64,000 nt of DNA from Lentisphaerota bacterium (lineage in GTDB: Bacteria > Verrucomicrobiota > Lentisphaeria > Oligosphaerales > JABHEG01), in the NCBI GenBank assembly GCA_018676675.1, contig JABHEG010000073.1:1-64000 (forward strand), written 5' to 3'. Every line of letters begins with the position of its first letter. Positions within the stretch are counted from its first letter, which is position 1. Both the position numbers and the translations under genes were made by a program. Below the pieces are notes generated by a model. The model was given only the letters and a program-made list of their open reading frames with translations, did not search any database and was not told the DNA's origin. Positions 59,450-64,000 of this stretch are shown here, piece after piece.

Positions 59450-62400
59450 TCAGGGGACAACGTCCTTGCCGCATCTCAGCGTCACCTCCCCCACACTCAG
59501 TGCGCTGGCAAGGGTCGACGCAGGAGAGTACTTGCCGAGGTAAACGGCCTGAGCCTTGACCGACTCCGTGTAGGCTGGATTGAGAGCCATAACGGGGTTC
59601 CCTCGCCACCTGATCGCCCCCCAATCCATGCCCTCCCTTCGAACCCGACACCCCACGTTGGCGTGCGGTCCGCGGGAGGCATCGTAGAGCACCTGGAGAT
59701 CCCATACCGCACCGGGAACAAGGTCGAGCCCCGGGAACGGTGTGTTGGCCTTTGCGGCGGTCTTTCCGTCCGAATCGATCCCCCACAGGACGAGCGAAAC
59801 AGTCCCTGCCCCAAGTGTAGGATTGGCTTGGGCGGACACAAAGAACAGGCTTCCGGGCCCGAAGCCGTTCTCGATCGACCCCGCAACGATGTGGTTTCGG
59901 GGCCGATCAAAGCGGAGGCCCGCGAACGTCCAGGCGAATGCTGTCGCCCCGCTGAGCTCAGTGATCTTCCCGAACTCCACGAAGCTGTCGTCCTTCACCC
60001 CCGCCGGTTTGCCGATCGTTCCCCCATCCGTGACCACAACCCGTCCGTCTCTGGCAATCGCCCCGCCCCGCGCGACCGCGTCGCAGGTCCCCGGTTTTAC
60101 CCGGTTTTGCAGCGGATCGGGACCGCTCCACGTCCACCGGGCCAAAGGCCGTTCCTCAAGGACATCGGCCGTGTCCGAACGTGAATTGAGCGGCGACACC
60201 CGAGTCACTTCTACTCCATTGAGCACGGGGGCACTCGCAGCCGTCATCGCAGTGCTGTCGGGCCGGAGTTCGACGGTCAGCAGGTCCGACGCCACAACCC
60301 CTTTCAGGACGTGGCGACGTCCACTCTGAGAACTACCTGCCTGGCCGGCAAGCGTCAGTCGGCTGCAGACAACGTTGCTCTGGACGACAACATCGAATAC
60401 CCGCGTGCGGGCCACAGCTGGCGCGGGGGAGGCAAAGTGAAGAACCACATCAAAACGACCTGGTGCACTTCCTTTGGCCTGGAGCGGGATGGAGAGCTTC
60501 CGCAGGCCTGTGCAGCCTGAGGAGTAGACCCACGCCAGACCGCCCTCGAAGGGATGTCCGTCCGGAGCTCCTCTGTAGAAGCCCATTCCCTCATTGAACT
60601 CGCAGTCAAGACTGAACCGGAAACCACGTGGATGGAAGGGGCGTGGGTAGCCAAACCACAGCTTACCGGTCTCATCACGACGGTCCCCGGGAGCCCCCAG
60701 GTTGACCGCCAGGTGCTTCACAGGGGTTGGCGGCCCGCTCAGGGAGATGAACGACCAATGGCGTTCCCGAGCTGACGGTCGCAAGGCAAGGGAGGCCTTG
60801 ATCGGGTATGGGCACGTGCAGCCGCGGGTCTGGTCAGGCGCCACGAGTAGACCGTTGGCCGGAATTACGTTGATCCAGCATCCGGGCCGAACACCCCCGA
60901 AGTTAGTGATCCCCTGATCGGAGTCCAGATCAAAATAGGACAGTACACTCGAACGGAAGAAGAGCGCTCGGGCGCTGGCGGAGGAACCGCCGCAGCCGTA
61001 GGAACGATTGTAGGTCCAGTTCCCCATCTCGCCCGTGATCGGGTGTTTCCTCTGGAGCGGCTTCCCACTGTGCAGGTCATAGGCAAACCTATCTGTGTAG
61101 ACTGCCTGTCCGACGACCATGCTGCGCCGCCGGTAGTAGTAGTTGTACCGGACTGGATGAGACCACAGCAGGGCGCCGTCGGCCGCAGAGAGCGCGAACA
61201 GATTCTGCCCGCCCCACACTTCGCCCAGCACGACCACGCCGTCACGGTAGGCGAGTGAGAGGCACTCAGCACTGTCCACCAGCACGCGATGAGGAGGACG
61301 ATGCAGGATCGGGCCTGGCTTACAGTACGTGGTCAGATCGACATCAGTGGCCCAGAGCCTGGTGCCGGTCTCCGCATCGAGGGCGACGAGATGCTTGGTG
61401 GTCTTCCCGTCCGGCGCCTCCCGACCTTCGACAACAAACACATTGCCGTCGCCTATCGCCACGGAAGCGTGGCAGATGTAGCGCCCGGGCCCAGGCACGA
61501 ACACCCAGCGAGGAGTACCGGACGTGCGCTCAAGGGCATGAAGGGAACGACTCGAGACTCCGGCCAACTGCCGCAGGATGCGTCCCTTGTACACAGCGAG
61601 TCTGTCGGGGGGGATCGCTTCGCCCGGCCCGCCCTCAAGTTCTTCCAGCCATGTGTCCATCTGCCGAATCAACCAATGCGGCGAGCTGTGCAAGGCCACC
61701 CGCCCTCTGGCCTGGGTCAGCTTGCGCGTGATTGCGAGTTGCGCAAAGTCCTCTTTCAGCGGAGCGTCCGCCGACTCGAGACGGAACTGAGAGAGGGCCG
61801 TCCCAAAAACCGTGTCCCCTTCCACCGCCAGGATTCCCCAGAGGTCCGCGGTGCCGAGAGAGGCGGATTCCGGGAGTCTGAACGTACCCGTGGTCTCTCC
61901 GCTTGCTGCCGACACTCGAGTACACTCGCTCCCGTTCTGGCGGGTGACGTACAGGCTGTCGCCTCCAGCCGCGACGAAAGAGGCATCGCGGATCGCGGAT
62001 TCCCAGAGAGGGGTCCCGTTGTAGGCATCGTAAGCTTGCAGTGGGCTGCGAGCAATGAGTAGACGGCCGTCGACCACTAAGGGACTGACCGAGCCTTTGA
62101 TACTCTTGGTCGGCCCCGGCTCACCGAACCACAGCAGTTCAAACGGCCCGTGCGCAAGCTGGTCCTCCGAACAGGCCGTCGCTGCTGCGGATCCATACTG
62201 GTGGCTCCAATCCGCGGTGCCGGGGAGAGCGCCTCGGACGGCCCGCAACCATCTGCCGTTCTCGCCAGCGCGTTCGAGAACGACGCCCGTTGAGCCCCGG
62301 GCCCAGGCTTCCAGCACCTCAATACCAGGAGTCGGCTCCCCCTCCCTCCGGACCAGAACCGTTCCTCCACAGGGGCGCAGGATCCGCGAGATTTCCTGCA

Positions 62401-64000
62401 TGGTGGCTGGTCCTGCCGCGAATGCGACAGAAATATCGTGGACGATCAGGTTCGCACAGAGGTCAGGTACGGGCCACGAACGGCTCCCTGAAGACGGGTG
62501 GTCGACCGTCAATCGCGTGCCATACACCGACGTCCGGCTCAGGACGCGCCGCAACGCCACCGTCTCTGCGGCGTTCGCCGTGAGACAAAGAACCCTGAGC
62601 TCGCTCCGTTCAGCAAGCTGGTGGGCCAGCCTGCCGTTGCCTCCGCTGAGGACGACGCAATACCCCTTTCTCACGCCCGAAAGCCGGAGGAGTTCGTCAG
62701 CTTCGACGTCGTAACGCAGAGACACGTCGTCTGGTGGGAAGGGCTTTTGCACGGCGGTCACAGTCTGCTCAACGCACTCCACTTTGCGCGTGCCGAAGCA
62801 ATGAATGGACCCCGTGTCTGTGCTCACGAAAAGGTACCCATTCGCGACCGCAAGGCCGCCAACCACCCCCTCGACAGCGCCCTCCCATGTCTGCGTACCC
62901 GAGTGCGTGTCCACGGCGATTACCCGGCCGACCCCGCCGGCGAAGAGCGTGGTGTCTGCTAGAACCATCGTGTGCAGGCCCTCGGAATCCAGCCGCCATT
63001 TCGCCCCCGCTTCCCCCTTGCGGTGTCGAGCCAGATGCCCGCGAAGATCGCTCAGCTTGGTCTCCTCATGGGGAGTGCGCTTCTTGTACCAGGATTCGAG
63101 CCCGTTGATTTCGACCTGCAGATCCATCTCGCCGCGAAACGCTTTCCTTTCCACAGCCCGGATTCCTGACGTGGAAAGGAGGAAGTACGTATCGAGGGTG
63201 GCCACGGCCTGCTTCTCGCGGAAACGCATGACCACCTTCCCTGTTTCCGGATCATAGGCGGTAGCATACGCGCTGACGGAGGGGTTCCCGGGGCTGGCGA
63301 CGAGAGCGCCATCAAGAAGCGACAGGGCCGCACCCCCGAACTTGAGAGCCGCGCCCTGCCAGGACTCGGCATGCTGCCAGTAAAGCAACTCCCCGGAGTC
63401 TTTGGCGAAGGCGGCGGGGACCGATCTGCCCGCCGGAATGAACAGACGGTCGCGGTCCACCACCATGGGCCCTTGAGGGGGAACGCCGCTGAACCCATCA
63501 CAGCCCGGATGCGGGTGCTGAGTGTAAGCGGAGCCGGAACTGTCGTTCGTCCAGATTGGCCTCCCGGTGTCAGCATCCAGTGCATGGATGTAGACTCCTT
63601 CCGCAGGGAAAAGCCCGGCGGCCACATAGGCCACACCGGCATCCACCAACACACCGGTCCGGACGGGCCAGAGAGAGATGACCTTCCCGTGGCCAATCAC
63701 GCGAGTGTCCTGAGGGGCAACGCGAGCAGCCCAGATTTCATTGCCCTCGCGAGCGTCCAGACAACGTACCCAGCCATCATCAGCGCCCACGTAGAGCTTG
63801 CCTTCCCGGTAGGCTGGAGCCACTCGCACGGCCGCCCCGCCGCAGAACGTCCATCGTGTGGCTCCGGTGTCCGCTTCCAGCGCGGTAACAGTGCCATCGG
63901 CTGAGGAGGGGACGAAAACCAGGCCTTGCGTAGCGATAGCATGATTGGCCACGTCGAACGTGGCCTTGGCTTCGTTCCACTGGTCTTTTGGCCACGAGGG
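59450..64000 (-). CDS. PQQ-type beta-propeller giant with inserted methyltransferase-like domain and malectin/LamG tail (partial)
   Basis: At least 1516 residues are visible; the frame is open across the right edge, so the true start lies outside. The last codons before the GTG at 63952 read on as QWNEAKATFD, confirming this. Residues about 1-400 (from the GTG) are PQQ-like blades with YVGADDGWVRCLDAREGNEIW-type repeats. About 420-560 resembles a class I SAM methyltransferase (VLSGGNGRLAHQLAE motif I, EISRILRPCGGTVLVRR). About 600-1060 holds more blades. About 1120-1255 is malectin-like, and about 1330-1500 is LamG/concanavalin-like. The methyltransferase lacks a perfect GxGxG motif and may be non-catalytic. 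Function is unknown; localisation is probably extracytoplasmic. Confidence 0.75.
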   Translation of the reverse strand, partial: PSWPKDQWNEAKATFDVANHAIATQGLVFVPSSADGTVTALEADTGATRWTFCGGAAVRVAPAYREGKLYVGADDGWVRCLDAREGNEIWAARVAPQDTRVIGHGKVISLWPVRTGVLVDAGVAYVAAGLFPAEGVYIHALDADTGRPIWTNDSSGSAYTQHPHPGCDGFSGVPPQGPMVVDRDRLFIPAGRSVPAAFAKDSGELLYWQHAESWQGAALKFGGAALSLLDGALVASPGNPSVSAYATAYDPETGKVVMRFREKQAVATLDTYFLLSTSGIRAVERKAFRGEMDLQVEINGLESWYKKRTPHEETKLSDLRGHLARHRKGEAGAKWRLDSEGLHTMVLADTTLFAGGVGRVIAVDTHSGTQTWEGAVEGVVGGLAVANGYLFVSTDTGSIHCFGTRKVECVEQTVTAVQKPFPPDDVSLRYDVEADELLRLSGVRKGYCVVLSGGNGRLAHQLAERSELRVLCLTANAAETVALRRVLSRTSVYGTRLTVDHPSSGSRSWPVPDLCANLIVHDISVAFAAGPATMQEISRILRPCGGTVLVRREGEPTPGIEVLEAWARGSTGVVLERAGENGRWLRAVRGALPGTADWSHQYGSAAATACSEDQLAHGPFELLWFGEPGPTKSIKGSVSPLVVDGRLLIARSPLQAYDAYNGTPLWESAIRDASFVAAGGDSLYVTRQNGSECTRVSAASGETTGTFRLPESASLGTADLWGILAVEGDTVFGTALSQFRLESADAPLKEDFAQLAITRKLTQARGRVALHSSPHWLIRQMDTWLEELEGGPGEAIPPDRLAVYKGRILRQLAGVSSRSLHALERTSGTPRWVFVPGPGRYICHASVAIGDGNVFVVEGREAPDGKTTKHLVALDAETGTRLWATDVDLTTYCKPGPILHRPPHRVLVDSAECLSLAYRDGVVVLGEVWGGQNLFALSAADGALLWSHPVRYNYYYRRRSMVVGQAVYTDRFAYDLHSGKPLQRKHPITGEMGNWTYNRSYGCGGSSASARALFFRSSVLSYFDLDSDQGITNFGGVRPGCWINVIPANGLLVAPDQTRGCTCPYPIKASLALRPSARERHWSFISLSGPPTPVKHLAVNLGAPGDRRDETGKLWFGYPRPFHPRGFRFSLDCEFNEGMGFYRGAPDGHPFEGGLAWVYSSGCTGLRKLSIPLQAKGSAPGRFDVVLHFASPAPAVARTRVFDVVVQSNVVCSRLTLAGQAGSSQSGRRHVLKGVVASDLLTVELRPDSTAMTAASAPVLNGVEVTRVSPLNSRSDTADVLEERPLARWTWSGPDPLQNRVKPGTCDAVARGGAIARDGRVVVTDGGTIGKPAGVKDDSFVEFGKITELSGATAFAWTFAGLRFDRPRNHIVAGSIENGFGPGSLFFVSAQANPTLGAGTVSLVLWGIDSDGKTAAKANTPFPGLDLVPGAVWDLQVLYDASRGPHANVGCRVRREGMDWGAIRWRGNPVMALNPAYTESVKAQAVYLGKYSPASTLASALSVGEVTLRCGKDVVP

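Follow-up and report, generated by a model that had tools for sequence, protein, structure and literature searches.

A methyltransferase-fold domain joins two propellers in a predicted secreted protein family of a Lentisphaerota bacterium

Why should an apparently exported protein carry a methyltransferase fold among PQQ-type propeller repeats? This question is raised by an open reading frame at the end of the window, i.e., the whole 64,000-nucleotide stretch of DNA analysed (positions 1 to 64,000 of contig JABHEG010000073.1). The original prediction described its product as a likely extracytoplasmic propeller interrupted by a methyltransferase-like domain and ending in a malectin and LamG tail. 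The open reading frame, the flanking propeller repeats and the methyltransferase-like middle of this description hold, while the "halves" of an "interrupted" propeller and, in this copy, the LamG domain are not supported, and the malectin assignment is weak.

The gene, its export signal and its two propellers

The gene is genuine. In the ORF listing, the minus-strand frame at 59450-64000 has no internal stop and is still open at the window edge; the rest of the gene lies on the same contig (79 kb; C363), with the ATG at contig position 64189, past the end of the window. The probable full-length protein, reconstructed from this contig, comprises 1579 amino acids and has the N-terminus MSSNVPYSRLRMAVLWIVACTFPVEA|ADWPTYRHD. 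The source genome assembly amounts to 14.1 Mb in 390 contigs, with 8% contamination. The features of the gene are as follows (residues are those of the full-length protein):

59450..64000, minus strand: in-window part of the gene, residues 64-1579 of 1579 plus the stop codon, from the ORF listing; the signal peptide lies beyond the window
62792..64000, minus strand: propeller 1, residues 27-466 (64-466 in the window), about eight PQQ/BamB-type repeats by reading, PF13360; a separate secreted ORF at locus L062
62237..62725, minus strand: class I methyltransferase-fold domain, residues about 489-651; Methyltransf_25 in the family, profile match to 3dlc, low-confidence model
62633..62653, minus strand: degenerate SAM motif I, VLSGGNG, residues 513-519, from the translation and the family alignment
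60755..62221, minus strand: propeller 2, residues 657-1145, about eight repeats by reading, PF13360 and PF01011; also found after the methyltransferase domain in group II
60812..60994, minus strand: four-cysteine stretch of propeller 2 (C1066, C1104, C1124, C1126), from the family alignment
about 63000-63200 and 61560-61740: predicted helical inserts, residues 334-391 and 815-875, from a low-confidence model
60281..60460, minus strand: malectin-like stretch, PF11721, E = 0.004, 17.6 bits against a cut-off of 23
59453..60112, minus strand: end of the tail, named LamG in the original prediction, without a Pfam match at E <= 1

The relatives of this protein form two sister groups, I and II, which are parted by a single change on a FastTree tree of the region after the methyltransferase core. 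Propeller 1 is confined to group I, and group II proteins consist of a signal peptide, the methyltransferase domain and propeller 2.

The predicted extracytoplasmic location is borne out by the recovered upstream sequence, which contains a Sec-type signal peptide, judged by eye, with the cleavage region FPVEA|ADWP; also by eye, this site lacks the lipobox Cys after the signal peptide. A signal-peptide-like hydrophobic stretch before the mature start, defined by a heuristic threshold of our own choosing, occurs in 32 of 40 proteins of group I and 62 of 69 of group II versus 0 of 17 control ORFs. On inspection, the eight group I proteins without it proved mostly to be truncated, masked or with a mislocated start, and one of them (L045_4280) is a split or frameshifted copy.

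PQQ-type repeats are present on either side of the middle domain (PF13360, E = 9e-36), as had been proposed. Each propeller opens with a similar start motif, ADWPTYRHD... in propeller 1 and ADWSHQYGS... in propeller 2 (DWPTYRHDNARSG; DWSHQYGSAAATA). At L062, an intact ORF of 461 codons encodes propeller 1 behind a signal peptide of its own, and the adjoining gene encodes a signal peptide, a LamG-like segment (by reading), the methyltransferase domain and propeller 2; a similar split with the reversed gene order is present at L036. These split genes, together with group II, indicate that the constant unit is the methyltransferase domain plus propeller 2, and the tails vary among loci. By sequence comparison, the methyltransferase domain links two apparently complete propellers, of which the second has it as a constant partner on the N-terminal side.

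The idea of "propeller halves" within a single interrupted propeller is rejected, since either part opens with a start motif of its own and has about eight repeats, and both parts are known as separate secreted genes. A mis-assembled fusion is unlikely because the same order occurs in about 30 paralogs and in relatives from other genomes. As BLAST of propeller 1 against propeller 2 detects only repeat-level similarity (E = 0.003), we do not claim an origin of the two propellers by duplication.

An AlphaFold model of the propeller–methyltransferase–propeller part, built with three sequences, has a mean pLDDT of 42.8, too poor for conclusions, and a fold search with it returned only generic propellers, e.g., BamB and tetrathionate hydrolase. 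In the low-confidence model, both propellers have a predicted charge-rich helical insert, at window-ORF residues 271-328 and 752-812, respectively. At L045:2959-6907, propeller 1 and the methyltransferase–propeller 2 part lie in overlapping different frames and the second signal peptide is absent, which may be a genuine split or may come from a frameshift or an assembly error.

The malectin part of the predicted tail falls under the Pfam cut-off, and Malectin is carried by 10 of 29 relatives. The LamG part found no counterpart in the window protein by Pfam search at E <= 1, though Laminin_G_3 occurs in 5 of 29 relatives; CBM9, CBM96, NPCBM and other domains are also present in relatives' tails. 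The AlphaFold model of the tail alone (pLDDT 38.9) is unusable.

The methyltransferase fold and its SAM site

The assignment of the middle domain (about residues 426-588 in window-ORF numbering) comes from its family, as the copy in the window, searched alone, has no Pfam match. In an alignment of 31 copies of the domain, 20 members match Methyltransf_25 (best 1.8e-12), and the profile of the domain family finds solved class I methyltransferases (3dlc, E = 3.3e-13; 3bus, 6.7e-7). In addition, the P and G of an RxLRPxGG motif are near-invariant across the family. By these profile comparisons, the middle domain is a true class I SAM-methyltransferase homologue, in agreement with the methyltransferase-like fold proposed from the sequence. 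The original prediction placed a Rossmann-like domain at residues 420-560, and strands alternate with helices over window-ORF residues 427-589 in the AlphaFold model, which is of low confidence and adds little; the profile evidence is stronger.

The SAM-binding residues, suspected to be degenerate, were checked on the family alignment. The window copy departs from SAM motif I, (D/E)xGxGxG, at the acid (Val513) and at the first Gly (Ser515), and the acid at the end of beta2 is replaced by Thr537. A motif-I D/E is found in only about 6 of 63 group I and in none of 70 group II copies versus 23 of 26 methyltransferases from this genome that lack propellers, counted by hand from the sequences. Group I retains a GxGxG-like motif in 22 of 63 copies and group II in 35 of 70; the strict GxGxG pattern is present in just 16 of the 26 control methyltransferases, so the glycines alone discriminate the family from the controls poorly, while the acid does it well. 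From its substitutions, the window copy probably no longer methylates.

The two groups differ in how the motif state is distributed on a fast tree, for which the sample was picked by search rank, so that the counts are indicative and gain is not separable from loss: 16 changes in group I (shuffled mean 18.2, minimum 12) versus 10 in group II (shuffled mean 23.8, minimum 18). The scattered state in group I is in line with absent constraint, and the figures for group II indicate that a coherent part of this group retains the glycine loop. At the motif-I acid position, group II mostly has His (39 of 70), next to the conserved glycine loop; this combination possibly represents a different ligand site.

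A multi-copy family and its neighbourhood

The two-propeller architecture is represented by about 30 paralogs in its own 14.1-Mb genome, which also has at least 11 single-propeller copies of group II, of which one (L044:15896-19312) lies about 12 kb upstream of the gene and shares its contig. The domain profile matches 25 of 99 related genomes, a few of these matches being stand-alone methyltransferases; it also has 18 matches in an Armatimonadetes MAG and 22 in the complete Phycisphaerales MAG CP070806.1. In the window's phylum, at least 24 of 388 genomes have a match to the group II composite profile; the figures are at least 42 of 294 for the phylum of CP070806.1, at least 15 of 201 for that of the Armatimonadetes record and at least 2 of 64 for that of a Gemmatimonadota record, although the phyla of those three records may not all differ from the window's phylum. 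These counts are lower bounds, as most of the surveys scored only a few candidates in each genome. Relatives were not found in the viral contigs searched, and a literature search, judged by titles, yielded no report of such a propeller–methyltransferase–propeller architecture. The architecture is apparently undescribed, assembled from known parts and more general than was first noticed.

Directly upstream of the gene, on the same strand, lies a gene for a GH116-family glycosidase. The 46 near neighbours of the paralogs include three sulfatases, three DUF4838, three beta-helix and two GH116 genes as well as RGL11, GH4 and NPCBM, in a genome that may be rich in such genes anyway. These neighbours, pectinolytic genes among them, and the carbohydrate-binding tails of the relatives support a role in polysaccharide use and do not prove it. 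Upstream of the GH116 gene, also on the same strand, L044:9456-10967 encodes a PRK13663-family protein of unknown function (E = 3.6e-226).

Possible function and relation to known systems

We give somewhat better than even chances to the reading that the protein is secreted, does not methylate and takes part in polysaccharide use, with the methyltransferase fold as a structural or binding module beside the four-cysteine propeller 2. Its history probably began with the capture of a class I methyltransferase fold by a secreted propeller protein, after which the pressure for SAM binding would have relaxed in most copies. The domain would then have stayed on the N-terminal side of propeller 2 as its fixed cap or binding partner; capping is a guess since the structure models are of low confidence, and the "repurposing for binding" suggested by the original prediction is possible. 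Contacts with the substrate, presumably a carbohydrate, or with the wall would be supplied by propeller 1 and the C-terminal lectin-like tail.

The four cysteines of propeller 2, conserved in 29, 29, 29 and 25 of 29 aligned family members, would mark a functional or stabilising site. Disulfides are likely because the protein is secreted, and metal binding is possible. The cysteines might also belong to the active site of an enzyme, a quinoprotein-like oxidoreductase or hydrolase, for which the methyltransferase fold only shapes the entrance. This is suggested by their universality in the aligned family, by weak similarity to PQQ dehydrogenase profiles and by the propeller enzyme tetrathionate hydrolase heading the fold search with the low-confidence model. 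However, TIGR03075 scores 35 bits against an NCBIfam cut-off of 480, far below PQQ dehydrogenases, and conserved cysteines in a secreted protein can be plain disulfides; we consider an enzymatic propeller 2 unlikely, and the non-methylating protein of polysaccharide use with a structural or binding module is preferred.

Retention of the glycine loop by a coherent part of group II means that some members may still bind a ligand. One can suggest that in the family at large the domain still binds or converts a small ligand such as a nucleoside or SAM outside the cytoplasm, the window copy being a decayed paralog. The core group II proteins retain VHLGCGDGxLTAAL, often with an acid after beta2, and the loop state tracks the group II tree; nevertheless, the motif-I acid is missing in 70 of 70 group II copies, every intact member is apparently exported and SAM is not known outside the cytoplasm, all of which makes an active domain quite unlikely. 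The specific version, in which the loop-keeping group II proteins would be extracytoplasmic nucleoside- or SAM-binding enzymes acting on sugars or envelope polymers, the family a broad class of extracytoplasmic methyltransferase-fold enzymes and the window protein a decayed branch, has in our estimate a very slim chance. It is improbable that the protein serves outer-membrane or envelope assembly as a scaffold like BamB, instead of sugar use. Among NCBIfam families BamB (TIGR03300) scores best, and its structures rank high in the fold search with the low-confidence model, but its 73 bits are about a quarter of the 285-bit family cut-off, the lipobox Cys is lacking and the about 30 copies have varied carbohydrate-binding tails.

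Read as a secreted non-methylating protein, this family, exported, propeller-fused and present in dozens of copies, would be a clear case of an enzyme fold retained where its cofactor is unexpected. It apparently spans several phyla, with many copies in some genomes, and once its function is known, a block of secreted proteins now lacking an assignment would be accounted for. The most interesting point is whether the loop-keeping group II members have any ligand outside the cytoplasm; copies with kept SAM loops and copies with decayed ones offer natural pairs for asking whether this site still binds anything.

Among known systems, the PSCyt (Planctomycete-specific cytochrome c) proteins of freshwater Verrucomicrobia are also multi-copy, of unproven function and located near sulfatase and glycoside hydrolase genes (PMC5615132). 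The likeness is one of genomic style only, and the Pfam scans performed here reported no cytochrome domain. With the PQQ/BamB-type propellers (PF13360, PF01011, TIGR03300), both propellers of our protein share the repeat type; unlike BamB and PQQ dehydrogenases, it scores far under the cut-offs, has two propellers per chain and carries four conserved cysteines in propeller 2. With the class I SAM methyltransferases (PF13649/PF08241; best solved match 3dlc), the middle domain shares the fold and strand order, homologous by profile, and the C-terminal RxLRPxGG motif. In contrast to these enzymes, the family appears to be exported and is propeller-fused, the motif-I acid is gone family-wide, and the window copy is short of further SAM residues.
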